Source: Bryoerythrophyllum caledonicum (lineage: Eukaryota > Streptophyta > Bryopsida > Pottiales > Pottiaceae). Taken from it: a DNA stretch of 64,000 nt. Positions 9,501-57,405 of the stretch are shown here, piece after piece (the stretch's first letter is position 1; every line of letters begins with the position of its first letter). Below the pieces are notes generated by a model. The model did no database searches. It was not told the origin of the DNA and saw only the letters and a program-made list of their open reading frames with translations. The stretch lies in the NCBI GenBank assembly GCA_963971425.1, contig OZ020516.1:13318593-13382592 (forward strand). Reading direction: 5' to 3'. The position numbers and the translations under genes were made by a program.

Positions 9501-10313
9501 AAGGGGTATTTGTAGACCAATTACTAAATGTTGTGGTCTGGATATTTATTTCTTTTCCCTAGCCTAGGTTGTTGAGTGGTTGATAGTTTCATTTATGAAC
9601 TATTATTTTCGTTGTTTACGGAGGCAACGGTGATAGTTTAGTCATCATTGCTCCGAGTTTGTCTCTAATTGTGCGCTTTCATATGTTGGCATGATGTTAT
9701 CTTTGAACAATGTATTTCTGTACAATAGCTGTCACGATCGGCGCATGGAGGTGATTGTGTACGTGGTTTTTGGTTAGAAACCACCTAAGAAGTTGTGGAG
9801 TTACCAGAAGGCGTGCAACTTAGCTCTAATTGGTGATTAGGGTTAGGGTTAGTGATGTGTGACGGCTAGGTCAACGGTGGTGTCTTTTGACACCTCATTT
9901 TCGGACTAGGAGCCTAAATGACCTCCACGTGTGTGGTCGAGGGAGACTCATCTTTCTCAAGTTGAGTCTTCCACGTGATGAGGTGAGGGTGTGTGTGCAC
10001 ACCGTTAGCTGCATCGTGATCATGCTTCAGCTCTTCAAGAGTAGCATGGACTTGACTATCATGTAGTTACAAGTGTTTTGTACTTCTTTATTAGTAAAGG
10101 GGTCCTTGTAGACCAATTACTAAATGTTGTGGTCTAGGTATTGATTTCTTTTCCGTAGCTAAGGTTGCTGAGTGGTTGATAGTTTCGTTTGTGAACTATT
10201 GTTTTTGTTGTTTACGGAGGCAACGGTGATAGTTTAGTCACCATTGCTCCAAGTTTGTCTCTAATTGTTTGTTGGCATGTTGTTATCTTTGCACAATGTG
10301 TTTGTGCACAACA
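9498..10313 (-). mobile_element. Ty3/gypsy-type LTR fossil with an extra partial LTR copy
   Basis: A full-looking LTR occupies 9730-10313 (584 bp, TG...CA). On the minus strand it runs from TGTTGTGCACAAAC to CGATCGTGACA. About 220 bp of the same LTR is present again at 9498-9727, directly next to the integrase fragment, giving a tandem partial-plus-full arrangement. The same LTR family recurs at 15559-16168. No matching 5-bp target duplication was found. The fossil is old; LTR copies differ visibly. Confidence 0.65.
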
Positions 10314-10329: not shown

Positions 10330-13300
10330 AAATAAGATTGGCAAATTATGTAACTAGTATGGTATGGATGTTGGCATTAAAAAATGTGCCGCAATGGGTA
10401 GCTCAAACAAATCCAAAATGAACCCGACCCCATTTAAAGCACTCATGCAAGCCACCAACATAAAATACCGTAATCAGCCCATTCCTATGCTACATCAAAA
10501 CGAACCATACGTGTACCTAGGCACACATCTTGTCCCCTCACTAAAATGGAAGATACAAATTCATTTTACTTCCACAAAACTCGCCAAAGAATGCAAAGAA
10601 CTAACAACATGCACGGCCACTAAGAAGCAAAAAATAAATATGGTAGACACAGTACATAGACCCAGAGTAGCATACAATTTCTACGCAGTCTTATACTCTA
10701 TGCTTGCAATCAAAAAACTAGACAAAAAAATCATAGCTCTACATAAATCCATTTGTGGCCTCCCGAAATGTATGTCAAATGCCATAACCCAACTTCCACA
10801 AAATCTATTTGAATTAGAAGCTTTTTCTTTAAAAAATGCCTACCTTAGATGTATAGGAGAAGAACTTCAAAATACACTCAATGACAAAGGTAAACTAGGA
10901 AAGATTTGTAAAGGGCTCACCCATACTATCCTTGCCAAATGTGGCGGTGCTATAAACATTCCTTGAATAAACAAAGTGGATTGCATTAGATCACCAATCA
11001 CTTGTACATAGTTTCTACTAAAAAATGAAGCAAAAGTCTACCTTAAGAGCACGCTCACGGACTTTCTTTTAGAACCCTCACCTCTAGAGCATATATGGCT
11101 ACAAGAACCCAAAAATGTCACAAGAATTAACCAACATCTTTCCCAAAAACTCTTACAAAAACTTCTCTCGGCAAATATTATTGACTTAAAACAAATCACA
11201 TAACCATACGAAACACACATCATGAGTCACAATGACTTCAAAAAAATTCATGCTACACCATCCAAATTAGTAAAAAGCACTCTTAATATTGCTCAACAAC
11301 TATTTTGTTACCCCCCATGTACTAATACATGCGCCTCTCTATGTACCACACACCCAAACCCCTACACACTTAGAAACACATATGCCACCACCAACAATAA
11401 CATACATTCCAAAAACAACTCCCCACCAATCCACCCCCCACCACAGCCATCCTTCCTTCCCCCCCAATACACATCCTCAAAAACCCATCCACATATCCCA
11501 TAAATCTCATTCTTGACAAAACCATAGAAAACATATTGACTCAAATAAAATTATAAAAAATGATACCAAATATCTATGCTAATGGCAACACAACAACAAT
11601 ACCTACAACAAATGGTTATTCCAACAAAACTTCTTTCCATGGCATGACCAAAACACTTCCACCCATAATTCCACACAATTAAAACAATAATATCTAAACA
11701 TTCAAAACAAATCCTACTTAGAAATCATCCAACACACCACCCCTAAGAGCAATCTCGTGATTCAAGATTCGTTACCCCACCCATAATCATTCCTCCACCC
11801 ATAATCATTCCTCTCCTCAACATATACACAATCGAATGCAATACCAAAAAAGACATTCTCACATAAAAAAATACAACTAAAATTAATGAAGACCTCCCAC
11901 ATATATACGAAGACAACTGAAGACATCTAATCATTGTTTCCATCACTAGGCTCCAATGGCTTTGGAACCAATACCATAACAAATTACAAACTTCCACAAA
12001 TATAGAACCAACAACCCAACCATTCCAAACTAAAGCAGCTTGGCTATACCAAACATATAAATACCACATCCCAAAAATGACCCCCACAAACTTGCACAAT
12101 TCAAGTTACCCACGCCCATTCTAGACTCACTAATCTCATCTTTCAACATCCAACATTTATACTTCTCATCAGTGTCACCTGCCCCATCCAACTCAATAAA
12201 TTCCACTCACCCTTTGGCTCACCAGGAAAGGTCTTTTACCACAAATGGATTGGAAATGGTATCGCACACCTCAACAATGCAAAAGAAACGCAACAAGCAA
12301 TATATTGGACAAGACTTGCGGCCAAAAATGATCCAAAATACACCTCCACCCTTATTATCACACCGGATAAAAATTGGTACCAAAATATTAACCCACACTT
12401 AGGCCCATTCCTAGATTCTTACATCATTGCATTATTTGAGGCAAACTCAGTACCATATGAGTAACCCACTATCCCATCCAAAGCAAAAAGAAAACCTAGA
12501 CTCGAGCCATCCACCATACAAATACTATGCATACATCACCAAAATAATAACATTGGTACCACGGAACAACTTACTACACTTACCTCTATAACAAATAACC
12601 TTAACGTATGGCAAATATAGCCCCATCTACACCTTCTCAAACCCCAGTCAACCGCAACAAAAAATGGTCTCAACTTAAATATGCAAACATGACACAAACC
12701 CACCTCACTAGACCACCATCCTTTCCAACATACCATGACTATACCCCCTTAAAATTTGATCCCGCATATAGATATTACATAGTTGGCTCCTTCAAAGAAC
12801 TAACATAAGTAAGCATGGGATAGAGGCATAGAGAAAAAGCACAATATGGCATCTATAACCTCACTAAAGAAATTAAAATATCCAAAAGACTACATGGACT
12901 TTAAAATATCCTTAGAGCATAAATTATGGGCCTCCATAAAACCCTCCAAATTATCACTACACAATACACTTATGAACCGGCACACATCTTTACATGTCTT
13001 ATATCAATTAAACACACAAATAACACATCCTACCCTCCACAATAACCACCCAGACCAAGCCATACTAATATCTATGGTTCAATTGCTACAAAATTGCACA
13101 CAAACTACAACCCTCCATAAAATCAAAGCACATGTCAACATAGAAGGAAATGAACAAGCGGATAAACTAGCTAAAGAAGGATTAGGTAAATCCCATAGAA
13201 ATGCCAAATACCCGCATGAACATGCCCACGCTACCCCATACTACTTCCAAAGAGAAAGTTGGTCTTCTATGGAAGACACCCCGGACAAAGGCCCCTTTAG

Positions 13301-14460
13301 ATTTCTGGACAAATATCTCAAAAAACAAGACCGAATCCACAATCTAGATTTAATCTTGGAAAGTTTTCCTAACATAGCCAAATGGACTGATATCAACAAC
13401 ATTGATAACAAACTCTCTACAATTTTTTGGAAAAACTCCACAATCACAAATCCACAAAAAACATGCCTTATCAAATTTCGTACTAGACAATATATGGGAA
13501 ATGCCCGCAAACAACTTTTCTTTGGAATAGAAAGATTTCCATCCATAACATACCCAATATGCGCCTCCACGGACCCAGACACATGGCTACACGTACTCCT
13601 CAAATGCCAAAACCATCACATATTACACTCCCTAATTGTCAAAAGGCACAATAAAGCGACATGGGAAATCCAAAAACTAATAATATCCTCAAATAAATCA
13701 CAATGCTTCATACTTATGAACGCCGAAACCTTCAACAACAAACCACAAGAAAACACAGTTCCTCCATGGCTACTTCCATGCACATGTGGAACCCAAAGAT
13801 GTCATTGTAATGTCAGATTTAAACCAGACATACTATGCGTCAAGGACTACCGTATGAAGAACCCCCACCGAACCACATAAATACAAACCTTATTATCCAA
13901 TTTATGGAATTCAAATATTGCAACGATAGATTTTTCCCACAAACAATCAATTTTTTTTTAATAAGTATCAACCACTTGTTAATGACATTGCCGCCCAGCG
14001 CTAGAAGGTTGACCACCTTGTTGTCATCGCCGCTAGAGCTAGAGCTCCTACCTTTAACCCTTTATGAAAACTCTCAAAAAACATTCAATATTCCCATTAA
14101 CCAAATTCAAAAGACATTCACAAAAATTAACACCATTGCTATTCAACATGCAATATCCATACTTCTACACAAACAAGAACTCAAAAATGACCAACCTCTT
14201 CCTAAACTATATGATATCCTCTAAAGTCCTCTCAAAATATACATCTTCCTCATCACGTCTTCTCTTGGAATTGAGCCATGAGGCCCTGGTTGGTTCTCGA
14301 TTACTAGTTACTAGTTATTGGTTATTGGCCACATAGTGTCTACCCTCAAGAGGGAGAAGTGCTACTAAACCTATGTCCGGTGGACATGAATTTAGTGGTG
14401 GAAGATACAGACACTTTATTCACTCCAACCCCCTTCGGGAACCGGAATTCTTCTTCTAGT
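10330..14460 (+). mobile_element. Degenerate LINE with RNase H, 5'-truncated
   Basis: Frames at 10364-10966 (YLGTHLVPSLKWK, the region after the reverse transcriptase catalytic core) and 12846-13880 belong to one LINE second ORF. The second frame has an RNase H C-terminal motif, HKIKAHVNIEGNEQAD, then a cysteine/histidine block near 13560-13620. The 11000-12840 stretch is broken by many stops and holds no long frame. A final piece (about 14060-14224) is shared with the copy at 17481. The 3' tail (about 14330-14460) has the CCTATGTCC hairpin and ends CTTCTTC, as in the SINE at 3226-3573. The endonuclease and most of the reverse transcriptase are missing. Inactive. Confidence 0.75.
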
Positions 14461-15558: not shown

Positions 15559-16168
15559 TGTTGTGCACAAACACATTGTGCAAAGATAACATTGTGCAAA
15601 GATAACATCGTGCCAACATGTGAGAACGCACAATTAACAACAAATCTAGAGCAACGGTGACCAAACCATCCCCGTTATCTCCGTAAACAACAAAAACAAT
15701 AGTTCTCAAAAGAAACTATCAACCACTTAGCAACCTAGGCTGGGAAAAAGAAATAAATACCCAGACCACAACATTTAGTAATTGGTCTACACGGACCCTT
15801 TTACTAATAAATAAGTGCAAAACACTGATAAATCACAATAAGTCAAGTCCATGCAACTTTTCAAGAGTGAAAGCATGATATCAATGATGTTAATGATGTG
15901 CAACATGCACACATCCTCACCTCATCACGTGGGAGACTCAACTTGAGAAAGATGAGTCTCCCCCAACCACACGTGAAGGTCATTTGGGCTTTAAGTCCCA
16001 AAAGAGGGATCAAAAGACACCACTGTTGACCTAGCCGTCACGGCACTAATCCTAATTCTAATCACTAATTAGAGCTAAGTTTTACACCTTCCAGTAACTC
16101 CACAACTCCCTAGGTGGGTTCTAACCGGAAAGCACTTACACAAACGCCTCCATGCGCCGATCCTGACA
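15559..16168 (+). mobile_element. Ty3/gypsy-type LTR
   Basis: A 610-bp LTR running TGTTGTGCACAAAC... to ...GATCCTGACA. It is homologous along its length to the reverse complement of 9730-10313. A purine-rich tract (GAGGAGGGGGA) sits immediately left of the TG, as expected for the polypurine tract before a 3' LTR, so I read the sense strand as plus. No coding domain flanks it and no target duplication was found. Old and incomplete. Confidence 0.7.
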
Positions 16169-22474: not shown

Positions 22475-23068
22475 AACGCGACATGTTGTGTTTGTCTACA
22501 CAGGCAGCAACGAGGTGTTTTTCACTTCACTTTTTTCTGTTGCAAGTATTATCTCGAAATAATCATGGGAAAGTTCGAGTTAGTGGCCATTTTTGGGAGT
22601 TGTAGCCTTGTGTTGTAGCCGAGGCTTTTTCTTTGCAGATCTTGAAGGACTTGTACGAGTAATACTGTGTGCGTCTATGGCCTAGTTTTCACTCAGTAGT
22701 ATCGTTGGAGTTTCTTAATTAGCACTTGGGTACCTAGTACCTGTCCATAACCAGGTTGTGATTGTAATGTTTCAGGACAGGTATTCAAGGTTTGATGTAG
22801 AAGTGCGTTTGAGATTTTAGCTCTTTGTTCTGATAACTCTAGAATCATGACAAGTTGTAAAGAAATCGTCTGCTATGACTACTTTTATTTCCTCTTGGTG
22901 TCTGCTTCCGATTCGAATGTATTCTTAGGGTCGTTCGGTGTTTTGCACGGTTTGATGACGATGTTTAAGATACAGTGCAATCTTTCTTGGTTGATTCAGT
23001 ATGATCGCTAGAGCATAATCCTTGGATAACTGGCAGTAGAATTACTTTAATGGAAAGAGGAACGTCAA
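22475..23068 (+). other. 3' flank of the ER coiled-coil gene
   Basis: T-rich, non-coding, probably holding the 3' UTR over the first few hundred bases. No sharp polyadenylation signal stands out. Confidence 0.4.
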
Positions 23069-23199
23069 GACCTCATTCTTGTCTCTAGCATGTCGTCCGA
23101 AATTAGTTGGAAGACCTCATTCTTGTCTCTAGCATGTCGTCCGAAATTAGTTGGAAGACCTCATTCTTGTCTCTAGCATGTCGTCCGAAATTAGTTGGA
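23069..23199 (+). repeat. Minisatellite, 44-bp unit x 3
   Basis: The unit begins GACCTCATTCTTGTCTCTAG and ends AATTAGTTGGAA. Three head-to-tail copies read as identical, the last lacking one final base. Perfect identity implies recent expansion. Confidence 0.9.
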
Positions 23200-24608: not shown

Positions 24609-24617
24609 CACAAAGCA

Positions 24618-24930
24618 CCCGCTCACTAGGTTCAATCCGTGTTCGGGCTGTCAGGCCCTGTTTTGGTCTTCTTTCCGTCTCCCGCGGCCGTCCCCCAAAA
24701 GCATCTTTCCGCCCCCTTGTCCGCGTCTTTTCCTTCCAGCGCCTCTCGCCCTTTCCGAGATCCCTGCCCGATCCATCCCGATAAGCGCCTGCCCGCCCCT
24801 GCTATCGGCGCAGACCCCGAGACCCGATAACACCATATCGGCTATCGGCCTAGGAACGGATCCACGCCCACGTGTACCGGTGGGACCCATCCACCCGCCC
24901 TCCGCCGCCGATAAGCCAGTATCATCCGGG
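24618..24930 (+). repeat. MULE left terminal inverted repeat (313 bp)
   Basis: Reads as identical to the reverse complement of 34554-34866. GC-rich, with several CCGATA/TATCGG words in its inner half and a CACGTG-type motif (CCCACGTGTACC). It probably contains the transposase promoter and the transposase binding sites. Confidence 0.93.
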
Positions 24931-25062
24931 CAATCCGAGGAGCGGATATGATGTAGATGATTTATGTTGGACTCGGCTTGCAACGTCTCCCCAGCCCGTG
25001 TTCATTGCGGCGCCATTTGTTGTGCTCGCGGGAGAGTAGAGTGTCACCGATAGGCAGCGGGA

Positions 25063-28000
25063 ATGGAGTTCCTGGATCTGAATCTCCTGCCGCCGGTCTT
25101 CCCAGGTGTGGATGCAAGTGAGGTACCAGTTCGGAGTGGAGCCGATAACGGGGTGGCAGCGAGAGGATGGAGGCGGCAGGGTCGAAAGAAGCCTGCTGGT
25201 GTGCGTGAGGAGGGTGTGCAAGATCTAGATACAGCTATCCGAGAAGGCCCGCACGCTCGGTACCTCATGAAGCATGGTCACAAGGTTCTTAGGATGCGTG
25301 ATGCATTACATAAGCCTCCACCTGGTTTGCTAACTTGGAAAGATCTGAGGTGGAATATTGAGGCCGAGAGGGAGACGAAGTCCGCTGTTGATGACCTCCA
25401 TGGTCTTCCTGATCATGACCCCGGTGAGGGAAAGCAATCGAAGCTTATCGCCTACATTCCATGGGATAGAGTAATGGATTTCGTGAACGGTGAGCAATCA
25501 GGCCGAAAGGACGTCGAGACCACATTCGTGCGGGATAAATTCGACCTCACGAACGTGGGAGATAAGACCCACTATCGCTGGAACTGCCCCATCGAGCTTC
25601 AACGGTAAGATGGTCATTGCTGTTACGAGGGTTACTGTCATATCGTCTACTGCGCACTGTATCCATCACTAAAAGTTCTCGGCTGTCGTTGCAGATGGCG
25701 TTGTCAATACGGTCCCCAAGACAATAGAGACAAGATCGACGATATCACTCCCGATATGGCACCCACAGCACGACGATACAATCGGAAAGGAAAAGAGATA
25801 TACTCAGGACGTGGTCAGAAAGGCCCTCGTGCTACTGACGCAAAGGAGGGAGGGTCTATGAAGGTGGGCTGCCAATGTAGATTCTATGTAAAGAGGTACT
25901 ACTTTCTACCATCTATCGCCGAGATAGGGTACTTCTGCAAAGATCACGTTGATAGAGAGGGCATTATCGTTCACGATAAGGTAAACATCACAAGGGGGAG
26001 ACTCAGATTCCGAAAGTGCATATCGGAGGAGGTTAGAGATTGGGTTCTACGGCAGTACGACGAGCTCGTTCCTATGGAATCGATTAAACTAAAGCATCAG
26101 AGGTTGGTACTCAAAGGACGCGATGAGGGCACGCTCACACCTTCTCGGGATTGTTTCCTGAGCATGGAGGATATTCGGAACATTTGTGGCGTCCGTGCGC
26201 AAGAACTCTACCAGAAGCACCATAATGATGCCGAGAGTGTTAGAATGTGGGTAAGAGAGAATCGAGAGATGGTATTCTACTACCAGGATCCGGGGACTAA
26301 GATAGAAGGGGTCTTGAACTCTGACAACGTGCCCTTCGTGATAGGGATTCAGACCCCCTTTCAGCTGCGGATGATGCTCAACTATGGGCACGATAGCATT
26401 ATTGCGATAGACGGGACCTTCGCTACAAACAACAAGAAGGTATGCGCCTTTACGATTCGCTCTGAATGTGTCTACTCATCCTATCTACGAACTTCTGCTA
26501 CATCGATTCGTATCTTCTAGTACTAATATTTCCTATTGTTTACAGTACCCTCTATTCACGATGATGGTGTTCGACGACTGGAGGAATGGCGTGCCCGTCG
26601 CCTTTATAATCACCGCGAGATCAAAACAAAGTGATCTAGTGCCTTGGATGCACGCTCTAAAAGAGAAGCTAGAGAAAATCAACCCAAGATGGAGACCTAC
26701 AGCATTCGTACTCGACGACGCCGATAACGAGATCAACTCACTCCGGTAAGAAACTATAGAGACTCACAGAATACCCCCTCTGGTTTCATATCTTGCCTTT
26801 TGTACGTCAGGTTCAGGTCGGGATGATACGACATATCGGCGTTCCGGCTTTCTCGTATCGTGCTGGGTTATCTGATGGGTTATCGTGTTTTTACTTATCG
26901 CAGGGAAGTTTGGCCTCGGTCGTTTCTGTTCCTATGCTTGTGGCACGTGCGTCGAGCCTGGCAAAAGAACGCTTGTGCGAAGTTGAAAGACATGGAGACG
27001 AGAGCTGCTGCATTGCGTACTGTAGGGGATCTTATGTACATGTCTGAGACACCAAGTGATTGCGATGACCCTGCTACGAGAGGACCTCCTACGAGGATCT
27101 GGACGTTGTTAGAGTGGGTTCAACACGTCTATATGGAGGCAAAGGCACGCATTCCAGATGCAAAGGAGTACTGGAAGTATTTTGACAAGGAATGGATGCC
27201 GAAAATCCATATGTGGGTAGTGGGAGACAGAAAGATCCCTCATGCGGGCCAGGATACCACAGCTGCGATAGAGTCATTCCATTCGAACATGAAATCCGTC
27301 TTGCGACAGTCGAAAAGGAAGCTTATCGGCCGACGGATGGACTGGCTTATCTATGAGCTCACTGGGAATGTCATTGAGAAATATGACTACACCGACTGGA
27401 GTAAACAGAACGGGTTCGTGAAGAACAAGAAGTTGAGGCAGATTATGGTAAACTCCATTATTCAAGCCAATTCGATCCCAAACAAGAACGTCGTATTGCC
27501 AATGTATATTGGAGGACCGGCTTTGGTTAGGTCTTCGAAACGAGGTCACATTGCGTACGCTGTATACAATCCCTGCACAGAGTGGGCCGTCTACGAGTGT
27601 GTGTATTCCCAGAAAGGGAACATCTGCAAGCATCAAGTTAAAGTACTCGAGTTAACGAGACCCGACCTCGCCTCGGGCAAGATTGCCCGATACCTCGGCT
27701 CTCTACGCGGCACGGCCCAAGGAGGTATGACAAATCTCCTGCTCTCCAACGACCAGAGATCGGAAATCCTACGGCCTGTTCTCGATATCGACGCCAACGA
27801 TATCTTGCCTTCAAGATCATGTGACCGAGATGTATGTTTCGAGACATCGCCAACACGAGAACTGGGAAGTGTGTGGTCAGATGACTTCGACCGCATGCAC
27901 CAACTCATTTTGAAGCTCCTCGATAAGGCGTATCGGCAACCGATACTGGCGCGGCACTTGGACGCCGGGTTACGAAGTATGGATGCGACATTGTCCAGAA

Positions 28001-28170
28001 TCGAGGCAGATATTGATGCCGGCATGCTTCATCCACTGCAGCAGATTGCTCATTCCCTCCCTTGTAACCGAGACGGGCTCGGAATGAGGCTTCAAAGACT
28101 GCGCGATTTCTTAGATTCGCGAGGTTACCGACATTCCTCGGCTCGTGCTCCCGAGAACCTTACGCAGTAA
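25063..28170 (+). CDS. MULE transposase (DDE, SWIM zinc finger), 4 exons
   Basis: Exons 25063-25604, 25695-26439, 26546-26745 and 26904-28170 join in frame to 917 residues. An N-terminal zinc-binding region spans about 182-267 (WRC at 182-184, C240, C242, C262, H265), of the WRKY/GCM1- or FLYWCH-like type usual in MULE transposases. The DDE core has D420 (AIDGTF), D486/D487 (FVLDDADNE) and E619 (AIESFHSNMK), with the family motif FLCLWHVRRAW (about 506) before the glutamate. A SWIM finger follows (C728-x8-C737-x-H739, ICKHQ). The C-terminal 150 residues are unassigned. Start at 25063: first ATG after the terminal repeat leader, giving MEFLDLNLLPP. All introns have GT-AG borders. All catalytic positions are present, so the protein may be active. 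Confidence 0.92.
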
Positions 28171-28205
28171 GCATAGCCAGTAGTCTATATTCTAAATTTA
28201 GAGAT

Positions 28206-28229
28206 CCGATAACGCCACCGCGTTATCGG
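28206..28229. repeat. Perfect hairpin between convergent MULE genes
   Basis: CCGATAACGC (28206-28215), loop CACC, GCGTTATCGG (28220-28229). It lies 36 bp past the transposase stop and is built from the CGATA/TATCG word that recurs all over the element. It may be a protein binding site or help 3'-end formation. Confidence 0.7.
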
Positions 28230-28579
28230 GTTGCCATATTGCGGTCCATCGTCCTCTCCTACATATGTTCATCTTATCGGAAGAGGTATACTGCTCTCGC
28301 TCCTATAGTTCTTATCGCGGGAGGTATAGTCCTGGACAGGATACAAACAGGATTGCTAGGACAAATACACATTATAATGCATAGATAAACGATAGCCAGG
28401 ATAGAAAGACATCTTCGCGATCATTTCATTACCAACACATTCTTGTACATTATGGAATATACAGTACAGACTCGTCCGGTATTTGATCGGAAAATGAATG
28501 TATACACACCTATCGTCGGACGATATGTCTGATCCTAACCTATCGTACATATAAAATACAAGAAGAAGAAGCTCTGAGC

Positions 28580-31500
28580 CTACTTCTTCTTCGGCTTTCT
28601 CTTCGTGCCCGGCTTCTTCACCCCTTCCCTAGGTGCTTCGCCGAGAGCCTGCCTCACACGACATCCCTTGAGCTGCAATGCTATCGTCTTCTCGATACCC
28701 AAGTCGATAGCAGCCCTCGTCGTATTCCTCCTTCCTGTTTCCGGGCTCATCTCCATGGTTTCATCATCGCCTTCCATGTTCTCGCTGGCGAGAACATATG
28801 CCTGTACAGGACTCCAGACATCAACTGTAGGCTTAGAAAACCCATTGGGCGGGGAAATAAGCTCGAGATAGAACGCCTGAACTAACCACAGTCGCGCTTT
28901 TGACCCCGCCCAGTCCTGCCATTTGTGGTTCTTCAGCAAATCCGGATCGGACACTGGACTACTCCCACGTATGACGAGGTACTGCCAGAATGCTAAGCAC
29001 GACACGTAACCGCACTCCCACGACAACGCTTGCTTTGGAATCGGCAACCTCTTCACCTTCCGTCCTTGCCACTTCCTCCACATGGCCGACTTTGGCGAAA
29101 CACCCCTCGCCATCGCCCACGCCATGTGCAACACAAACGCGAAGTTGCCCGCTCGCTCGTCCCGGTGCATATTCAACGTGTCGAATTGTATCGTCTGGGA
29201 GTCCTCCACGACAAATATACTCCAGTGACCCATGTTCTGGTAGGGCACCACTAGTGTGTCCTCGAGTCGAGATACGGTACGCACGGTACGATAGATGTAA
29301 TACACGACTTCGTCCCATGTGCTTGCGTCATCGATTTTCGACTGCATGCAATTGGACATCCAGTTGTGAGTCAACGCGTAGTGCCGTCGTACCTCCGGGT
29401 CAGCGCCGTATACGATATGCCGGAGTAGGAAGTCCATAAGAGAGCCGTCGAGCTCTCGCCGGTCCTGGAGAATGCAGCCCCAGTCGGCACGATTGAGCGA
29501 TATGGTCACAGCTTTCCTCTTGTCCGGGCCGAAGACGAGCATATCGTCTACAATGTCATCGAGTTTCTTGCCAGGGGGTCTGCGGGACAGAAATGACACT
29601 GTGAGTTAGCAAACGATACGTGCATTTGTACAGTACAAGTCATATCGTATTAAGGGGTTATCGTTCACAAGATATCGAACATGAACTATACTTGAGGAAG
29701 CAAATCGGAAAGTATCGGACGATAAGAGTAAAAAAACTAAACCTGTGCTTCAGAAGCTCGACGATAAGACCCAAACTTTGCTCGACCAGCTCCGGAGAGT
29801 GACTTGCAGCCTCGAAGCATAGAGTGGGCTCTCTATTCCAGTCGGGCATCCGAGACGTGCAGATGTGGCGGTTCTCGGGCAACATACACTCATACGGGGG
29901 TGGGTTATCAGGGACGCGTTTCGCGAGCGATTCCAGAAGTCCTGGATGATACACAATGGACTCCCTCTTCTCCATCACGCCCTCGATGACTTGCGCTAGA
30001 GTTCGCTCTCTCCATTGTTCCGATAACCCGTCCTACAAAAACCAAGAATCTATAGTCGTTAGGGGCGTAGTCTCTATGACACGGATTCGAGGGGAAGCAA
30101 ACAACATAGCATACATAGGCGGATATCGCGATAGGTTAAAAGGACGGTTTTGTCTATTAATTCCCTCGGCAACCTTCACGACTACGTTGTGTTCTTACCC
30201 CGTGTAATAATCGTAAGTCCTCGGGGGTTCGGTTCCCGTGTAGGTTTAGCAACCCATCTCCAAGCGTGAGGTCAGCCATTACCTGGGTCCATCCGAGAGG
30301 CGTTTCGTCCCCGTCGTCCGCCACAACAGGCTCCGATGGCGTTGCCGCTCCTTCTTCAGGTACGGTAGGCTCCGAAGGCATTGCCGCTTCTTCTTCAGAC
30401 AGCCTAGGCTCTGATGGCTGCGAATCCCTCTCAACGATAGGCGGATCGTTGTTTTCTTTAGCCCGACATTCCTTCTCGGCTTCGATAGGAACCGGGACCA
30501 TGTAAGAAGCGACGCCTGACATATCGCCTTCGGCAGTAGCACCGCCTGCAGATGTAGTGCGCCAGTCCGCTAGGTTCTCAGCTTCCTGGCTGACCTCGGC
30601 GTTGTCAGGTGTGACATCGGCTTCTCGCTCCTCGCTCCCACGGCTTAAATTCGGGACGTCATCGAACCCGGGGTCGGGGATACTGGCATCTCCTTCGTTA
30701 CCCGAGATCTCCTCTCTCTCGGAGTCGACGTCCATCGTCTCCTCCCCCTCCCGAGATGCAGGTTCTGAAGGACTCTCATCTTTCTTATCGCCGACGTCCT
30801 CCACCACGATATGCGGCGGGAGAGAGACCTTCTCTACGTGCTCCCTTCTTTGAGCAGGTTCTTGTCGCTCTCCAAGCCCAATCGGAGTTCCGTCGTGGAC
30901 GGCGATAAGAGCCTGGGCACCCTCGATGTCTCGAGTATTCCGAGAAGAATCCTCCGTGACGTCTTCGGATCGAATACGTGACACCGATGCTGCGCATTGC
31001 TTCCGGCAGAAACTTGTTATCGCCGTGAGACAAGCCTGCATCTCGGGCCCGTCATGGACTCCGGTAAGGTGACCACCTACCATATCTGTACACACGTGAC
31101 AGTGGATAAACATAAGTACTCACACACGATATGCATAAAATTGTAAGTGAAGATCGTAAACGATGTGGCGGACGGCTTACTCGATCCACTGCCGACATAT
31201 AGTAAGTCGATGTCTTCCCGAAACAGGCATTGCTCTTCGAGAAGCTCCCATGGCATGTACGACGCCAGATCGGTTTGACACCACCTCAGCTCAAACTGCA
31301 CCTCGTGTCTACAGGCCATGTCGATGACTGTCCGCGCTCTTACGTGATGGGTGAACTGTATTACAGCTCTGCCGCATTCACGCGCTTCGTTAACGAGCAT
31401 CTGATGGAGTTCTACCACCTCCGGATCTTCATCCGCGTACTCCACATGCCCGAAGAGAAACCTCCCTAGCTTCTCGTACAGAAATAATGCGCCATCCCAA

Positions 31501-33783
31501 GGCGAATGTGCGTTATCGGAGTTCCTATCAATCATCAGCGGCGTCATTCGCGCGTGGGGATGGCACATATTTGTTCCACTGCAATTCAAACAACAGTCAG
31601 CCGATAACTCATAAGCGATACCTCCAATCCAGTAGTTGTTAAAACGACAAAAAACTCTGAACTGGAACAAGAATCCGATAGCATTGAATCCCTAAAATAG
31701 CTGGTAAAATAGATGACGATAATAGAGGGGGGACAAACCGGTTACTGAAACCGTTGGCGATAAACCAGCACTTCAGGAGCCTCGCTTCTCGGGGAGGACG
31801 CATGGGATCGATACTTGCTGCCTTCAAGATCGATAACACCACTCTCGCCTCTTCGGAGTTGTGTTTCCATGGCATGGGCGGCAAGAGCTCGCGAATGAAG
31901 GGGTTATCGGCGCAGAAGTGGAACAGGAGATTGTAGTCCCACACCAAGGCCTCCCATTCCACAGACCGCTCGTTGTCGTAGGAGGCAATTCGGGAGACCA
32001 GTTCCGCCTCGCGGTCTTGTTGGATCCTGGCGGCCCTAGCTCTTCCCGAGACCTCCCATTCTTGCGCCTCCTTCTCTCGTTGAAGAAATAGCCACGTCTC
32101 CCTCACAGTAGCAACCCACCGAATTCTCAGCTTCTCGCTCCACGGAAACTGCGCCAGCTCTACGATAGGCTTGCACTCATTTAGCTCGTCGGTGGAGATG
32201 GCTTGCGTGCAGAACGCTTGCCCGATAGCAGACGTAAAACGCCACTGCCCTTGCGCCACAACGTCCTGCATCATCTGAAGTAGATGATCCTCGGACGATA
32301 TGCTGCGACGCTCCTCTTCAGACAGCAAACCATTCTTCATGAGAATCCACAAAGGGGTTCGGGTTCGCCTCACTGGAGGTATGTCGGTTTGGATGGACGC
32401 CGCGTACTTTTCGTCCACGTCGAGACGAATGCGCTCTATTTCGCGAATGCGCATTTCCTCCAATTCCCGCGCCCTGGCTTCTCTGTCCGGGTTACTCTAC
32501 CTCGGCCTAGCGCCCCCCGCGAGGTATTGTCTGATACTTAACCTCTCGTCGGAGATATCGGCGAGAGTCGCGCTAGGTCCATCGTCCCTCCGCACCACCT
32601 TGTACTGTTCGCGCACTTCCGGTGCATTCCCTACGGAATATGGATCGTCTTCTCCATGGAAATTCGGGGCAGTGATGCTGTCAAAGGGACACATCGCACG
32701 CGCAGTAAAGTTCGGTTTGGGGCTCCTCGCACGCCGAGAGGATGTTGCAACATCCTGGCCTATCGTAGGCCTCTTCTCGACGTTCCCGGAGCTGCATTGC
32801 CCACCCTTCGCCGTCGCTGGATGCCTGACCGGGATCGCTTCATTGGGACGCGCATCGGTATCTTCGCGCGCCTCAGAGGATTCGCTATCCTCTCGCGACC
32901 CGTCCTGGTCCTCCTCATCCGATGTGGTCGTATCGGACGGGGCCTGTGCATGCACTACTCTCGATGCCCGAGAGGACGATGCACCTCGCTTTATCGAGTG
33001 CATGTCCCGACCACGAGCACTTGATGTAACAATCGCCTGGCTTATCGGGGCTCTGGAAGCGACATTCCCGGAAACGAAGTGCCCACTTTCCGATGTCGCT
33101 GGAACGCTGTAGGCGACGATGTCCATGGGCCTAGCATCGACATCTTCGCGGTCCTCAGACCTATCGCCATCCTCGCCCGCCTCGTACTGATCGTCGTCAT
33201 CCGATGACGACTCCTCGTCATCGGCTTCCAATCGGACTTCTCTCGATGCCCGAGAGGACGACGCTCCTCGCTTTCTTGCGCGCGTGTCCCGAGATCCAGT
33301 CCCGGCCGCTCTCTTCCCGCCGCCTCTCGGCTTCCTGCTAGCCCTATCGAGTGGGACGATATGCTGGAAAGCAGCAATGATTTCGTCCACTGTTGTAGAA
33401 TCCACCATCTTCTGTATGAATTGAGGTTGATTCTTGATGTCGAGGTTCGGATAAGCAGGCATTTTCCTGTTAGGTCGCCGAGGGCACTTCGCGTGATTCA
33501 GGTGCAGATTGATCCTATGTTTCTGCCCGACCTCCTTGCAATACGGACAGTGAAAAGCTTTCTTCTCCGGAGACAGTTCACTGGTCTTGTAAATCTGCGA
33601 GTCTGGCCCGTGCATCGCCAGAATCATTCTCCTGGCCGTGAGAGGAGACCAGCTGTCTTGCCAGTAATGCCCCTCCACCTTGAAAACTTGCTCTATCCTC
33701 TTCAGCCTATCGTTGTACTTCGGGTGGGTGGGAACAGCCTCCACCCCTCTCGGTAACTCACTGACGCAGTTGCATCTCGGCAT
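28580..33783 (-). CDS. MULE-borne Ulp1/C48 peptidase gene, 5 exons, one in-frame TAG
   Basis: Minus-strand exons 33783-31739, 31578-31181, 31085-30199, 30032-29743 and 29579-28580 have matching phases and total 1,540 codons. One TAG (32497-32499) interrupts exon 1. The N-terminus has a CPYC...H..H..C zinc-finger-like motif (about residues 79-100). Next is a serine/acidic region with an internal duplication of about 95 residues (KRGASSSRAS appears twice). Exon 3 is acidic with PSEP repeats. The last exon holds the C48 protease: His in GHWSIFVV (codon 29227-29225), Asp in FDTLNM (29182-29180), Gln in PKQALSW, Cys in ECGYVS (29014-29012), spaced as in Ulp1/SENP enzymes. It ends in a basic lysine-rich tail. 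Ulp1 enzymes cleave SUMO-like proteins; the role in the element is unknown, with counteracting silencing one possibility. The TAG may truncate the protein, be read through, or mean two genes. Confidence 0.8.
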
Positions 33784-34553
33784 TTTTGCAGACCTACAGC
33801 ATACAGCGCAAATCAGTCATGAAACTTATTATGAAACGTGGTACATGAGAAACCCTAAACCCTAAACTAAAACCGAGAAGTTAAAGCCTTTTAGTATTCC
33901 AAACGGTATCTCCCTTGGTACTCCTATCAGCGCGGCACTTGGAATTCCAATCGTTATCTCCTTTTGTACTCCAATCGAAGATAAACTTCAGTATGATTCC
34001 AGAAAAAATAGTACTGAGAATATCGAGTTCCAGAAACCCTAACTATCAACTTCCTGCGTCCACTTCACAACTCGATATGAGCCTATAGGTTTACAAACTG
34101 AATGAGAGCGGGAGGGTTTGCATGCTTACCAGAAGGCGTCGTCGGAGATGGAAGATGTCAAGGAATTCTCTGAGATCGAGCTCGCAAAAGAACAGCGCAA
34201 ACGATAATAGCGAGTACAAACAAACGGGTTTGCAAATGAGAGAGAAAACGAGCCAACAACAGCCTTCGCCATTTGAACAACGCCGCCGGAACATTTGAAA
34301 TTGATGGCGACAATGATGAGACTCTAATTCTCCTGTCGAGACTACCAGCCGCCAACCACAGAACTATAGCTATCAAAACCATCTCACGCTTTACCATGAA
34401 AGCACATCGCCTAGACCAAATCAAGAGACCGCCCTGTCATTCAATCCGAGATAGCTCCATCGAAACCCTATGCAAAAAATGATTGCTTTCAGATTCAATC
34501 GATTTGGATTCCGGCTGATTGCAACCCTCCTGCGATGGATGATTGTGACCATC
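33784..34553 (-). promoter_or_regulatory. 5' region of the MULE Ulp1 gene
   Basis: Between the right terminal repeat and the proposed ATG. A CTGCAG-like acceptor just before the ATG hints at a leader intron. No independent gene was recognised. Confidence 0.4.
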
Positions 34554-34866
34554 CCCGGATGATACTGGCTTATCGGCGGCGGAGGGCGGGTGGATGGGTC
34601 CCACCGGTACACGTGGGCGTGGATCCGTTCCTAGGCCGATAGCCGATATGGTGTTATCGGGTCTCGGGGTCTGCGCCGATAGCAGGGGCGGGCAGGCGCT
34701 TATCGGGATGGATCGGGCAGGGATCTCGGAAAGGGCGAGAGGCGCTGGAAGGAAAAGACGCGGACAAGGGGGCGGAAAGATGCTTTTGGGGGACGGCCGC
34801 GGGAGACGGAAAGAAGACCAAAACAGGGCCTGACAGCCCGAACACGGATTGAACCTAGTGAGCGGG
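34554..34866 (-). repeat. MULE right terminal inverted repeat (313 bp)
   Basis: Mirror of 24618-24930. It lies upstream of the minus-strand Ulp1 gene, so each terminal repeat faces inward to one gene and may serve as a shared promoter for both. Confidence 0.93.
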
Positions 34867-34875
34867 CACAAAGCA

Positions 34876-43412: not shown

Positions 43413-43703
43413 CCTTCTCGACTCAGGCTCACTTCAGATCAATAGATTTGTCATTCTAGCAATCAAGCAGAATTGAAGACTCTTGTGGATTAAGATCTAA
43501 GGTGAGTACTTGTTTCAACTCTTTTAAAGAAAAACGTAACCTTATTTGCACTGACGTTGAGACATGTTACAGGTTCTTCAGATCAGGACGATACTAGCAT
43601 TGTTCTCGAGAAGTTTTGATCTCAGTTGCTGCACTCTTTCAGGACATTCTCCACTCGGAGGCATCAAGGCTTTGAAGGCGGGTGGGTGCAACAGTGGCGA
43701 GCC

Positions 43704-44458
43704 ATGGCTGCACAGATTTCGTGTTCGAGGGTGCTTGCGACAGAGCACTCCCAAGAAGTGGTGGTGGTATTTCCCAAATCGCTGAGGACACGCTTTGTGG
43801 AGTTTTGGCTGTACAGCGGGGAGTTGCTGTGGAGAGCAATTAGGTGGATGTGCGATTGGTTTTGGGATGGAGGAATAGTATTTTTTGGTGTACTGGCATT
43901 CGCATTCGTTTTCCTCGCCGGCATGGTTGTGACTGCGGCTTGGGTTTAGATACCATTCATAACGGAAAGCTGTCACAAAGCGCCAGGCGTAGCGCTGGAG
44001 GATTTAGCTTCCGTGACATGACCGCGTTCCAGTCTAGCGTGACCGGCTCGCCGTGGCAGGTGAACAGCGCGTTCAGTGCCACCTTTTCCACTTGGAACCG
44101 GAACACCGTCGCCAAGTGCTTCACCACGTACCGCATCATGGATGTGCGAGTCGAATACCGTGGCCAGGTCATTCTGCAGCAGCAGGTACCGCTCGGATTC
44201 TCCCTGAAGCCGCAAGCGCGTCGCCCGTTTTCGATCGAGCTCAGGGGTGATCATGTGCAGCTGATGAAGAAAGAGTTAGGCCCAGTTATGCAGGCAGAGA
44301 TGCGGAGTGGCAACATCACTCTGGATGTTATCTACGCCATTCGCTACTTGATAGCAGACAGAAGGTCTAAGTGGATGAGCAATGGATGTGTTGTTGTTTC
44401 GAACTCACCACTCGACTCTTCTGGCTTCATGAAGACAGTGGTCGCCAAGGATTGCTAG
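43704..44458 (+). pseudogene. LEA_2/NDR1-HIN1-like gene, tandem copy 1, broken
   Basis: Close paralogue of the intact copy at 60039. The first part (to 43949) encodes the N-terminus and membrane segment. The frame then meets TAG where copies 2 and 3 have TGG. About 55 bp further on, one base is missing relative to copy 3 (GGAGGATTTAGC versus GGAGAGTTTTAAC), shifting the frame. The rest, including DMTAFQSSVTGSPWQVNSAF and the beta-sandwich, is preserved to the stop at 44458. Either a recent pseudogene, or a weak GTTTAG...TTTAG intron hides both defects; I favour pseudogene. The leader intron is conserved (donor at 43502, acceptor CTTTCAG at about 43643). Confidence 0.75.
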
Positions 44459-45202
44459 TCTTTCTGAGTACAGTTTCGTCAACGTTCTACAGAGTTCCGT
44501 GCTGCTACAAATGAAGTAGAATTGAGGAGTTTGCAATTCAAACTTTAGTGACTGTAGCTAGAGTTTGTAGCAGGCAGACTGGGATACACTCCGCATGAGA
44601 GGTTGACAGTGTGTCCATTACTCTTTCATCCAACGAAACCTCCTTCCAACGTGAATAAGTAGAGCAATCCTCAACCGCACTTCTCTCTAAACCTGTTCAT
44701 GATTATGTATGAAATGGTGCATTTTGACGAAATAATACAACATAAATTTTGGATTATTGTAACTAGGATTATATAGAGTCATGAAGGTGCAAATTTTTGG
44801 GTCGTCCACCTCATGCTAGCTCATCATTGGTGGCCTTGCTTGGAAGTCTCAAAAGGTTGGTGTGGTTTTGGGTCATCAAGTCCTAGCAGTGGGCAAAGAT
44901 GGGTTAGAAATTCTTACCCCAAGCCATGACAAGTATCACATACTTTACTACATAAATTGTGTTAATTTGGCACTTTTGAGATTAAATATAAAAGACTGCT
45001 CCTTGAAATTCATTCATGATTCTTCATCTTCCTTTCATAGTTCCCTTCGATACAAAATGTATTTTAGACCCCATTGAGCCTTATAAAATGGTTTTACAGT
45101 TGCTCTACCTTAGAATTGCAAAGTCGTGGAGGTTCAAAACAATCACGCTTTAGTGGGAATGGAAAGGAAAAGAAATAAATAACAATAAATCTCTGATTCC
45201 TT
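44459..45202 (+). repeat. 3' part of tandem unit 1
   Basis: From GCAGGCAGACTGGGATACAC through ATGCTAGCTCATCATTGGTG and GGAAGTCTCAAAAGGTTGG it matches the DNA downstream of copy 2 (58030-59345) and copy 3 (61365-62700). It is therefore part of the duplicated unit, not an independent transposon. It is cut at 45203 by the copia element. Confidence 0.7.
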
Positions 45203-46344
45203 TGGTAGATGTGTGCAATAGAAAGAAGATGTTTTATTGCAAGGTGGCAAAGCCTTTAAGTACAACAGAGGGCCCAACAACACGACGTAGAACGGTGGAG
45301 GCACTGCAAAGAATGTGAGATTGAGATCTGACCTATTTGAGATGAATCTCAAAGTATTTGGTTTTGAAGTGGTATTGCGGGTTGTCGGAAATCTTAATCC
45401 AACTTTGATTGTCACACATGATATGAAGGGCTCTTTTTTGTCAAATTCAAGCTCTTGCAGAAGAATATGAATCCATCTTGTTTCTTTGGTAGCCTCGACA
45501 AGAGACCGGTACTTGGACTCAGTGGATATTAGTGCAATACAAGTTTGTATTTTTGTATTCTAAGTATCTGGAGTGTTGTTGATTGTAAAGGTATATGTTT
45601 TAGTTGATTTGCACTGGTCTAAATCTCCCCCAAGTTGGCATTGTTGTATCCAATGAGAGAGAAAGTGTCGAACCGGGGATAGAAAAGACCCTAAAAAGTT
45701 GTCCCATCTAGATACCTCAATATTTGCTTTGTTGCATATAAATGTGCGGTTTAGGTGCAGAATTGTACCTAGATAGGAGGATGACGGCATATGTGATATT
45801 AGGATGTGTAGTAGTAAAAAAAGAAAGTTTATTGATAAGAGATTGGTAGCTAGTAGGATCAACGTTTGGTGTGTCGGTTTGAGCAGAAGTCATGAAACCA
45901 GCAAGTAGAGTCATGAAACGAGCAGGTAGAGGCGTTTGTGTCAGATTGTAGTCTTGTATTCTGTATTCATTAAGTATAGATTTTGCATAATGGATATGAT
46001 GGATGTTGATTCCTTGTTGAGATGATGTATACTTAATACCAAGAAATTTGGAGAGAAGACCGAGATAAGTCATCTTGAAACGTGAGTGGAATTTCTCTTG
46101 AAGCCATGAGATTTTCATTGTGAAGTTGCTAGGTAGAAATACGTCATCAACATAAAGGATGAGAAGAATGATCAAGCTTCCTTGGCGAAGGAAATAGAGA
46201 TTGTTGTTGCCATGAGACGGTTAGAGGCCGTGTTTCTGAAGCCATCTATTGATTTTTCAATTCCAGTTCCACGGGGACTGTTTGAGCCCATATAACGATC
46301 GGTGTAGTGCACATATCAAATGCTCTTGTCTATTGACGACGTTG

Positions 46345-49300
46345 TTTTGATGGGAATTCTTCCATCATGTAGATATAAATGTTAAGTTTAATATCTTTGG
46401 ATTTTAATAAACTAGGAGTTGAGGCAAAAGGGGTTGGTTGTAGTGAGAACCACAGTTTGAAGGTAACGGAACGCCCGTTAGAATGCGGATGCTACACCGC
46501 TCTTGTCACGTGCACAACTCCAGAGGATAAATAGCGGTGTCGGGTAGAGAGGAGCGTGCTTTGAGAATACGCGAGGTATCTGGCAGCGGCTTCTTATAGT
46601 CTGCCACGGAGTTCTGTCAAATCTTGTAATCTTCGGTCTTCAGTCCCCAGTCTTCAGTCTTCAGTCTTCAGTCTTCAAACTCCTCCGCGTTGGCCTATCC
46701 TGTGGTGGCTCTAAAGGGTTAAGGATAAAGGTGGGTGATAAGAAACCACGGCCTCGGACGGGTAAAACGGGACGGCCAGACCACAAGCTGAAACCGTCCG
46801 AAAGATTGGCTCCTAAAATTCAAACCTACGGTGACCAGCAAACGTGCCTCACCGGTGGGAACGACATAAACACGACCGTGTGGGCAATTAACCCCACTTC
46901 GCCGCAACAGAGCTTACAAGAACAGAATTGAAATACAACTAGCCTCCAAAGCTGGCTTGGAATCACAAAAAAAGAAATCGGACCACAAGCCACAACACAC
47001 TTATCTCCATCTTCTCTTCTCTTCAAGCCTCAAGTCTTCAATTCTTCCATCCTTCAACTCCAAAGTCCTCAAGTGTTCAAAAACACTAAGAAACTCAAAA
47101 GAAGTGTTCAAAAACACAATGGAAAAGTTTCACCAAGGCTGTAACCTTCAAACAAGTGACACAGATGACTCAAAATTTCAAATACTAAGTGTAATAGCTC
47201 TCTGAAAAGCTAATTCAGACAACTAACACTCCTCCAAATTTCAAGTCAATCTAAATTACTGTCCGAAAATTATACGAGTTCAAAGTTCTGCCCCTCCAGA
47301 TATTCAATCGCTCATAACTTCTTTTTCAAAACTCCAAATCTCAATTGTAATAACTTTTTGAAGAGCTATGACCCTTATTTATGCACCTTCCAATTCTCAA
47401 ACAATTCTAAACTATTGTCCAAAAGTTATGGACAATCAAAGTTCTGCCTACCTCTATTCATTCAGATCTCTATAACTTCTTGCTCACAACTCCAAATCTC
47501 AATTGTAATATCTTTCTAGAAAGCTAAGGTAGAGATGCACAGTCCTTCAAAATCTCAAATCAAATTGAGAACTACAGAAAAAGTTGTGGCTCCTCGAAAC
47601 CTCTGCCCCTCAATGGATGGCCTCGGGTTTTCACAGAATTAAAACTTCAATAACTTTTTCTCTACAACTTTGAATTCAAAATTTAAAACTATTATGAAAA
47701 GCTCTTGAATCAAGGAACAAGATCACAAATTTTCAATTCCATACAATTCAAGCTCAACGAGTTACACACGGTCAAAGTTCTGCTCCAAACCTTTGCTCTC
47801 TCACCCACACACACACACACACAGGAAGCTTATCCCTAACCTTTTCCACCTCAAGTGCACGTGGGCACTTCAGCCCATGTCACCCTATCCAAAGTACCCC
47901 ACAAGGTACTTCATTACTTTCTTATCTTTTCCACTTTCAACCACATAAAATCCCCTAGTCTTTTATTTATTGGAAGACTAAAAACTTAGACCTTCCAACC
48001 AACAAGATAAGTAAAATTTTAAAAATAACTAAAGAAATAAAAAAAACTTATCGTAAGATAGCTGATGGTACGAACGTATAAAGGTGTTGATTCGCACAAC
48101 CTGATCGCCAAGTCGTTGACTTCGTTGGCTGGAAATGTCGTGGTCAGTGGCCGCCGCCAGTCCGGGTTCAAACCCGATCGAGCCCGTCGAGTGGTTGGGT
48201 GGCCGACGGCTTGGCTCGCTAGTGAGGCGGGAAAAATACCAGTCAACCCGCTACCTATCCCTCTGAGCAGTGACAAGAGCGGTGCAGCACCTACATGCTA
48301 ACACTTGCCCAAATCCTCAAACCGTGGTTCCCACGACGACCAAACCTTTCTACCTCATCTAACCGCTAGCTGTAATCAAAACATATCCACACTGGTATTA
48401 ATATCTACATGATGGAAGAATTTCCATCAGGACAGCGGCTTGGCTGGTCCAATTTCCTACTGTCCTTGCAAACCAAGCCATGGGCCGCCCGAGCCGCTTG
48501 ACGACCTCGATTGGTTTCAAACCTAGACCGGCGGGCGAGTAATGACTGCCACATCTCCAGCCAACCAAGTTTACAACTTGGCGACCTTAAGTAAAAATTT
48601 GACGCTTATATGCATCCATGAAAGGGGCGTGGCTACATTGTGGTAGTTTTTTTTTATATTTATCTATTTTCTTTTTACTTATCTAGATGTTTGAAAGGTC
48701 CATGTACTTTGCCTTTTAATCAAATAAAATCACTAAAGGATTTTAGGTGGTTCGAGAAGTATGGATCGGAAAGGGATAAGCATCTTTGGTGGGGCTTAGG
48801 TAGGGGAGCATGGGATAATGTGCCTCATTTCCACTTTAGATTACAAAGAAGTTAGAAAGGTGCTTCTTGAGAGGAAGTTTGGGTGTGTATGTGTGCGGGG
48901 AGTTTTTGAGAGTTTCAAGCCGAATTTCGACTAGATGTAGCTCATAGAACATGAGTCTTTTGTATTAAAAACTTTGAAAGATTTTTCTATGTATTGAGAG
49001 CTTTTCAAATTATGTTTGCAAATTGGATTTGGAGTTGTATTGCAAAAGTAATGAAGGTTTGAAATTGTGAAGAGCCGAGGCCATCCATTGAGAGGGCAGA
49101 GGTTTTGGCAAAACATAACTTTTTTTATGTTTTTCATCTTTCTTTGAGTTTAAAAAGATATATGCACGATTGTTATAGCTCTCTAAAAAGTTATTACAAT
49201 TGAGATTTGAAGTTTTAAAGAAGAAGTTATTGAGAATTGAGTATCTGGAGGAGGGCAAAATTTTGAACGTCCATAGCTTTTGGACAGTAGTTTGGAATGA

Positions 49301-50031
49301 TTTGAAATTTTATTGATTGTTTGCTTGTTAAATCAACTTTCCAAAAAGCTATTACGCTTAGAATTTGGAGGTTTGAGCAATTTGTGGCGTTAGTTTGAAG
49401 ATCACAGCTAATATAGAAGTTATTTTTTAGGAGTTTCTTTTATGTTTTAAAGACTTTAAGACTTTAAGACAAGAAGATTTGAAGACTTTAAGTCAAGAAG
49501 ATTTGAAGACTTTAAGTCAAGAAGATTTGAAGACTTGAAGATAAAAAGACATGAAGCCTTGTATGTTGAAGCTTGTGGTTTGTTATTCCTGGCTGACTTT
49601 GGAGGCTCGTTGTCTTTATTTGTTATTCACACTAGGTTTTGGAGGCTAGTTGTTTATCATTTTGTTTTGTAAACATTCTTGCGGCGAAGTGGATTTGATC
49701 ACCCACACAATCCTATTTATGTCGTTCCCACTAGTGAGGCACAATTGTTGGTCATCGTGAGTTTGAAACTTAAGAGCCATCTTCTGGACGGTTTCAGCTC
49801 ATATTCTGGCCGTCCCGTTTTACACGTCCGAAGCCCGCGGATTTTTATTACCACACCTTGACTCTTAAACCTGTTTAGATCCATTACAGATTAGGCCAAC
49901 CGGGAGTAGCTAGAAGACTTGAAGATTTTGAAAACCAGAAAAATTGAAGACACAACAAAACACCCTAGCCAACTATTCTCAGTCGGAGCCAAATTCCCTG
50001 TGAATTCTCAAAGCGCACTCTTCTCTATCCG
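46345..50031. repeat. 3.5-kb imperfect palindrome inserted in the copia fossil
   Basis: Outer arms of about 1.6-1.8 kb, roughly 46532-48300 and 48420-50031, are reverse complements at moderate identity. Landmarks pair in order: GAGCGTGCTTTGAGAATA (46550) with its mirror near 50010; ACGGGACGGCC (46767) with 49810; GTCTTCA arrays (46640, 47030) with GAAGACTTTAAGTC arrays (49440-49540); GCCATCCATTGAG on the mirror strand (47620) with 49080; GATCGCCAAGTCGTTGAC (48105) with 48590. The left end (46345-46535) also matches the mirror of the centre (48240-48432). It lies between the two reverse transcriptase parts. A foldback-type element, or two opposed LTR-element ends, would both fit. Confidence 0.7.
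49440..49560 (+). repeat. GAAGACTTTAAGTC tandem array, about 24-bp unit
   Basis: A unit of the type AAGAAGATTTGAAGACTTTA repeats three to four times. The mirror arm has GTCTTCA heptamers at about 46640-46680. Confidence 0.65.
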
Positions 50032-57190: not shown

Positions 57191-57405
57191 AGGTGAGTAC
57201 ATGATTCATCTCTTTTGAAGAGAACCGTAAACATATTTGCACAACATTGGGATTTTTCAGTTTCATACCAGAGCAGGACGATACTAGCATTGTTCTTGAG
57301 AAGTTTTCTATCTTTTTTCAACCCAATTACTGCACTCTTTCAGGACATACCTCACTTCGGAGGCATAAAGGCTTTGAAGGCGGGTGGGTGCAAGAGTGGT
57401 GAGCC

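Follow-up and report, generated by a model that had tools for sequence, protein, structure and literature searches.

A young, coding-damaged MULE copy with an element-wide CGATANS motif, a candidate self-recognition tag

The 64,000-nucleotide stretch of Bryoerythrophyllum caledonicum contig OZ020516.1 analysed here (the window) contains a Mutator-like element (MULE) bounded by 313-bp terminal inverted repeats (TIRs). The left TIR (24618..24930, + strand) and the reverse complement of the right TIR (34554..34866, - strand) are identical at 313 of 313 bases, and this arm alignment, with zero mismatches, bears out the identity proposed in an initial annotation of the locus. Comparison of the flanks likewise confirmed the perfect 9-bp target-site duplication claimed there, CACAAAGCA, which is present at both element ends (24609..24617 and 34867..34875). 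The element thus shows both the target duplication of about 9 bp and the long terminal repeats by which MULEs are recognised, and its arms form the longest inverted pair in the window and the sole perfect one among the pairs listed. Two genes converge between the repeats, as initially read: a four-exon transposase gene on the plus strand faces a five-exon gene, here called gene 2, on the minus strand. We regard this structure (terminal repeats, duplication, and genes) as near certain. No second copy of the MULE was detected elsewhere in the 64-kb window by blastn, nothing in the window reached the Rfam gathering score, and searches of a plasmid DNA collection and of IMG/VR gave no match and no relative, respectively. 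The element differs from its surroundings in base composition and in the observed/expected CpG ratio, which is 1.08 inside and 0.66 and 0.67 in the two flanks.

The transposase exons lie at 25063..25604, 25695..26439, 26546..26745, and 26904..28170, all on the plus strand, and join through GT..AG introns into a frame of 917 amino acids. The spliced product matches the MULE transposase domain PF10551 with 51.2 bits (cut-off 27.6, E=1.7e-13). All three intron places are supported because unspliced relatives carry read-through inserts there: P0004 at intron 1, P0001, P0002, and P0004 at intron 2, and P0007 and P0008 at intron 3. In P0003, a named protein from a moss, the sequence runs on without an insert at the places of introns 2 and 3. 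Exon 2 encodes the N-terminal Cys/His residues and the first catalytic residue (D420, at 26410), exon 3 the second (D486/D487, at 26714/26717), and exon 4 the third (E619, at 27271) together with the SWIM region (27592-27633). The initial claim that the zinc-binding, DDE, and SWIM residues are all kept after splicing therefore holds for the Cys/His residues and the D-D-E triad but fails for SWIM, whose first Cys position is occupied by a Tyr codon (27592..27594, +). This position is Cys in all six database relatives covering it and in 15 of the 16 other genomic copies of the family described below, the sixteenth, a frameshifted copy, also carrying Tyr. The SWIM zinc motif, CxCxnCxH, is common in MULE transposases, though not universal. 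The closest named transposases come from Ceratodon purpureus (P0003) and Adiantum capillus-veneris (P0005, P0006).

Gene 2 runs on the minus strand from 33783 to 28580 and comprises 1539 codons in five exons: exon 1 (31739..33783), exon 2 (31181..31578), exon 3 (30199..31085), which is acidic and repeat-bearing, exon 4 (29743..30032), and exon 5 (28580..29579). Judged by residue patterns, its product appears to combine a zinc-finger-like N-terminus with a C-terminal domain of Ulp1-type H-D-Q-C pattern that falls below the Pfam cut-off. The former is a C-x2-C-x6-H-x4-H-x2-H-x2-C arrangement in exon 1 (33484-33549); the same exon holds a 57-nt direct repeat, with copies at 32954 and 33236 that are 86% identical. 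The latter is encoded by exon 5, with putative catalytic H at 29227, D at 29182, Q at 29032, and C at 29014. In Ulp1 (peptidase C48) the catalytic residues follow in the order H, D, Q, C, the Q standing six positions ahead of the C, and this order and spacing recur in the window, in P0009 and P0010, and in a diverged relative of the element, family B. P0009 (84% identity) and P0010 (46%) were the two protein relatives retrieved with the last gene-2 exon as query; a search with the full-length protein, from which 20 residues of a supposed intron had been removed, returned no relative at E<=0.001. A Pfam scan of four gene-2 open reading frames found no VANC-type domain at E<=1, with no VANC sequence compared directly. 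The window copy of gene 2 is interrupted by an in-frame stop at codon 429 (32497..32499, -), where all 16 other copies have a sense codon. A 60-nt intron around this codon was considered and rejected, the frame of the other copies being open through that stretch.

Across the element we find 82 dispersed sites of the motif CGATANS (N, any base; S, G or C), on either strand between 24779 and 34705; they occur in the terminal repeats, within introns, between the genes, and in the coding DNA of both. Their density is 8.0 per kb, compared with 0.26 per kb in the flanks, where no more than two fall in any 1-kb interval counted from a flank site. The same boundary is seen at eight element ends at other sites, with 6-9 CGATANS per 1.5 kb inside and one in 12 kb outside altogether. 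Each terminal repeat carries six CGATA/TATCG in its inner half and none in its outer 160 bp. CGATA spacing appears random and its orientation is mixed (48 of 97 neighbours alike). With the 60-nt stretch of the rejected intron treated as noncoding in the pentamer ranking and the seven-base counts, and relative to dinucleotide shuffles, CGATA shows the strongest excess among the 512 pentamers, both in noncoding DNA (36 vs 8.1 expected) and, taken separately, in coding DNA (56 vs 14.7); CGATANS is raised nine-fold in noncoding DNA (32 vs 3.6) and six-fold in coding DNA (44 vs 7.4), whereas CGATANW (W, A or T) stays near chance (4 vs 4.6 and 12 vs 6.8). In the two flanks CGATA ranks 456th and 255th of 512. 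Of 98 CGATA occurrences, 82 have G or C two places further on. Shuffling synonymous codons leaves the coding excess unexplained, with 15 CGATANS sites in the transposase (4.5 expected) and 29 in gene 2 (6.8 expected), and 0 of 2000 shuffles reach the observed count for either gene. We consider it likely that CGATANS is a functional motif.

A search for further copies, which the initial annotation had suggested, was made in the same assembly as the window (437 Mb, 894 contigs) and found many. Among the 121 gene-2 matches scored out of 355 candidates, 73, window included, reach at least 95% identity, and the 40 terminal-repeat matches scored out of 144 candidates, the window's two included, comprise 21 perfect matches and 19 with one mismatch. 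Ten copies with flanks and six without flanks were compared with the window copy (16 others, 17 with the window; family A). Target duplications are present at nine of the ten other copies checked (9 bp in six, 10 bp in three) and absent at one. The family splits into two subgroups, with divergences of 0.67% and 1.06% within and 1.30% between them, and in the second subgroup extra sequence is inserted behind element position 9361. Of the 16 other aligned copies, 6 keep their splice sites and have both genes in open frame. One identical score is shared by 20 of the 121 scored gene-2 rows, all of them among the matches of at least 95% identity. Two copies of this group, which is younger still, lie on contigs C4 and C9 and differ at two positions in 9,455 bp, and both have open frames and the SWIM Cys; their terminal repeats are comparable only in part, one left end lying in an assembly gap and both stretches stopping before the right end. 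Family A has almost certainly amplified recently. On contig C12 (13147927-13168791), two inverted family A copies lie within 20.9 kb; their outer repeats are perfect and they have the same match scores. The arrangement is possibly an inverted duplication or an assembly effect.

Over 10,249 bp, the window copy differs by 22 substitutions that none of the first ten other copies compared has, and two of these matter, the SWIM Tyr and the gene-2 stop. At this level of change 1.3 mismatches are expected between the terminal repeats, and the probability of zero is 0.26. At the Arabidopsis mutation rate of 7e-9 per site and year, perhaps wrong for the present host, the insertion would be about 0.3 million years old. 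The window copy is a young insertion, as proposed, without intact coding capacity. Because both of its genes carry damaging changes, its autonomy is not supported; it could still be mobilised in trans. What had been called a complete MULE is thus complete in structure and not in coding capacity; the suggestion that it might be mobile now fits the recent mobility of the family, seen in the C4/C9 pair and in the target duplications, and not the capacity of this copy itself.

If the motif matters for spreading, variants shared between copies, which have passed through transposition, should spare its sites, and changes arising after insertion need not. With variants counted as independent and an assumed transition weight underlying the expected numbers, none of 104 shared variants in family A loses a CGATANS site (4.9 expected, P=0.006), compared with 37 of 550 single-copy variants; in family B, none of 77 shared variants does so (2.6 expected), compared with 20 of 688 single-copy variants (23 expected). 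Taken together, the 181 shared variants include none that removes a site, and the product of both P values is 0.0005. Seven control words in family A show no consistent depletion among shared variants (the 11 expected-size classes are small), the best-powered of them, CGAGANS, giving 3 against 3.4 expected. CpG outside the motif behaves differently between the two classes, with 145 single-copy variants (71.9 expected by area) vs 12 shared variants (13.6 expected). Indirectly, this spectrum fits a history in which copies would acquire methylation after insertion, having derived from unmethylated source copies. Purifying selection on the family A proteins was also considered from the shared variants and rejected, the nonsynonymous to synonymous (N:S) ratios being as neutral, gene 2 included.

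Family B, of which two copies were read at first and six later, shows 72-74% identity to family A in transposase exon 4 (31 of 99 scored matches) and 40-45% in gene 2 (48 of 121 scored matches). Compared between the families, gene 2 (33-44% identity) differs more than the transposase (68-74%), and the zinc-finger-like N-terminal pattern is retained in family B gene 2. All six family B copies, each of about 9.3 kb, hold 48-54 CGATANS sites. In the first copy, N is A at 41 of 48 sites, and GATAAS and CGATAS rank first and third of 2042 words; in the second, CGATAS ranks first of 2039. As read from these sequences, the word is both kept and altered in family B, in a CGATAAS version set against CGATANS in family A. 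Where the transposase regions can be aligned, 8 of 16 family A sites are in place in family B, vs 18-21% of comparable windows (P 0.004-0.010).

It is established for the superfamily that MULEs are moved by their transposase. Here, the MULE transposase would act on the terminal repeats to move the element; the window copy would depend on transposase supplied in trans. The densely placed CGATANS sites would mark the element as self to a DNA-binding protein that the element itself encodes, most probably the gene-2 product. This predicted reader would keep its family's copies accessible for transcription and transposition, or make them so, in the way that VANC proteins act on VANDAL elements in Arabidopsis. 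Family B shows change in both the gene-2 protein and the motif, which is what coevolution of reader and tag would predict. We propose gene 2 as the reader because of its zinc-finger-like region, the way gene 2 and motif differ together between families A and B, and the analogy with the Arabidopsis VANC and KIU systems, that is, VANDAL-VANC anti-silencing and the KIU genes of KAONASHI (KI-) MULEs, as described in the available portions of the sources (PMC13317346, PMC6117577, PMC5735166, PMC2528002; see also PMC10398659). A recently inserted, coding-damaged family A copy with CGATANS as a self-tag is our best explanation overall, although we place it slightly short of an even chance. That gene 2 encodes the motif reader and has an anti-silencing role is a tentative assignment. 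More tentative still is the wider proposal that a TIR-MULE lineage, probably of a non-seed plant, owns a self-recognition and anti-silencing system separate in origin from VANC and KIU, in which a reader with zinc-finger and Ulp1-like regions would recognise a word of six specified bases in seven, placed about every 125 bp, coding DNA included at synonymous cost, with reader and word codiverging (CGATANS vs CGATAAS).

Other explanations might account for parts of these data. The motif might be bound by the transposase itself or by a host factor, for expression or transposition and not for anti-silencing, leaving gene 2 with another role; such binding would suit the six CGATA/TATCG that each repeat carries in its inner half, as well as the retention of N-terminal Cys/His residues by the transposase. 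However, the outer 160 bp of each repeat lack all six of these sites, no fewer than 70 of the 82 sites lie internally and 44 fall in coding DNA, where cutting and joining do not require them, and the transposase is more alike between the families than gene 2, yet the motif changed. We consider this reading unlikely. We also doubt that CGATANS is a passive word without function, whether left by a composition signature that was inherited or brought from a host of origin, as horizontal transfer might do, or by biased mutation. The base composition and CpG ratio of the element, which differ from those of its flanks, and the common ancestry of families A and B argue for it, as does the rise of a second word, CGAGANS. 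Against it stand the excess over both dinucleotide and synonymous shuffles, the split at position 7 between an enriched S and a chance-level W, the absence of site loss among the shared variants of both families, and the half of family A sites that are in place in family B. An intact, autonomous window copy, possibly active now, would agree with the identical repeats, the perfect duplication, and the open transposase frame, but the lost first SWIM Cys and the stop at gene-2 codon 429, neither typical of other copies, make the autonomy suggested in the initial annotation very improbable.

Several observations weigh against our preferred explanation, the self-tag and its gene-2 reader. CGAGANS is raised in coding DNA (44 vs 15.8 expected) and also, mildly, in the flanks (23 vs 9.8 and 20 vs 11.9). 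The motif was discovered and tested on the same element, the family B, shared-variant, and in-place tests coming later, and family B is a relative of family A, not an independent case. The shared-variant depletion in family B alone has P=0.07, and the Fisher comparison of shared with private variants there gives 0.25. Shared N:S counts of 12:6 in the transposase and 32:17 in gene 2 do not differ from neutral or private variants. Regarding the Ulp1-like domain, the gene-2 C-terminus scores 14.7 bits and P0009 13.2 bits with PF02902, both below the cut-off of 20.7, P0010 has no PF02902 match in the Pfam scan, and the predicted structure model is poor, with a mean pLDDT (predicted local distance difference test) of 35. 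Sequence searches of the PDB returned nothing relevant. In addition, VANC motifs, in the portions of PMC5735166 available, form noncoding tandem arrays in one orientation, whereas the sites here are scattered, face either way, and occur in coding DNA as well.

The remainder of the window holds other repeats. Three perfect 44-bp tandem copies lie at 23067-23199, 1.4 kb before the MULE. Inverted copies of one repeat (84-94% identity) occupy 9497-10273 and 15589-16168, beside an integrase-like frame (8957-9559) and an RNase H-like frame (12813-13877). Nested inverted-repeat arms at 46340-47657 and 48374-49835 (75-86%), about 3.5 kb across, are probably another decayed inverted-repeat element. Repeated gene-bearing blocks at 43655-45332 and 57106-62158 share stretches of 270-300 nt at 70-93% identity and contain LEA_2-like reading frames whose PF03168 match is below the cut-off.

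Molecular detail on how transposons escape plant silencing comes mainly from VANC in Arabidopsis. If the proposed reader and tag are real, a second system, with another protein, motif layout, and host lineage, would imply repeated origins of sequence-specific anti-silencing among MULEs, and it would give a test for the unexplained Ulp1 domain of such elements. CGATANS itself places a simple constraint on the coding DNA of transposons, one that can be checked, and the near-identical family A copies make present mobility testable. In the open-licence literature searched, we found no report of an element-wide coding motif of this sort and none of an Ulp1-type MULE in a bryophyte or fern; the articles listed for CGATA, motif, and transposon concerned, judged by title, Drosophila, insulators, or N6-methyladenine (6mA).

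Among known systems, MuDR of maize carries two convergent genes (mudrA and mudrB) between long terminal repeats and makes a 9-bp duplication. The present element resembles MuDR in all three features and differs in its Ulp1-like second gene. Dispersed bacterial uptake and recognition words, such as DNA uptake sequences (DUS) and Chi, are also single short words spread over coding and noncoding DNA, although CGATANS is confined to one transposon lineage. MuDR is placed in a MULE clade table in the available part of PMC6446971. The likeness to KI-MULEs and VANDAL-VANC, as far as the accessible text of those sources extends, lies in an antisense second gene ending in an Ulp1-like domain, a short motif that is typical of the family and abundant within its element, and a fast-changing second protein; the variable regions of VANC proteins are described as carrying tandem peptide motifs (PMC5735166, in part). 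In contrast, KI-MULEs are described as non-TIR, whereas the present element has 313-bp terminal repeats and, unlike the KI-MULE and VANC systems as portrayed in those sources, a zinc-finger-like N-terminus in gene 2. Ulp1-bearing MULEs are known from Arabidopsis, grapevine, melon, and rice (PMC2528002, PMC13317346, both in part). The TIR-MULEs with ULP1 regions of grapevine (PMC2528002) and of melon and rice (PMC13317346) share with the present element the terminal repeats, the 9-bp duplication, and an ULP1-like sequence downstream of the transposase, in either orientation; the available portions report no element-wide motif for them, and gene 2 here has 1539 codons in five exons. The same review, in its accessible part, places the acquisition of Ulp1 by non-TIR MULEs at the split between monocots and eudicots (PMC13317346), whereas the closest named transposases here are from a moss and a fern. 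Against this background of Ulp1-bearing MULEs, the element-wide CGATANS motif appears to be the new part.

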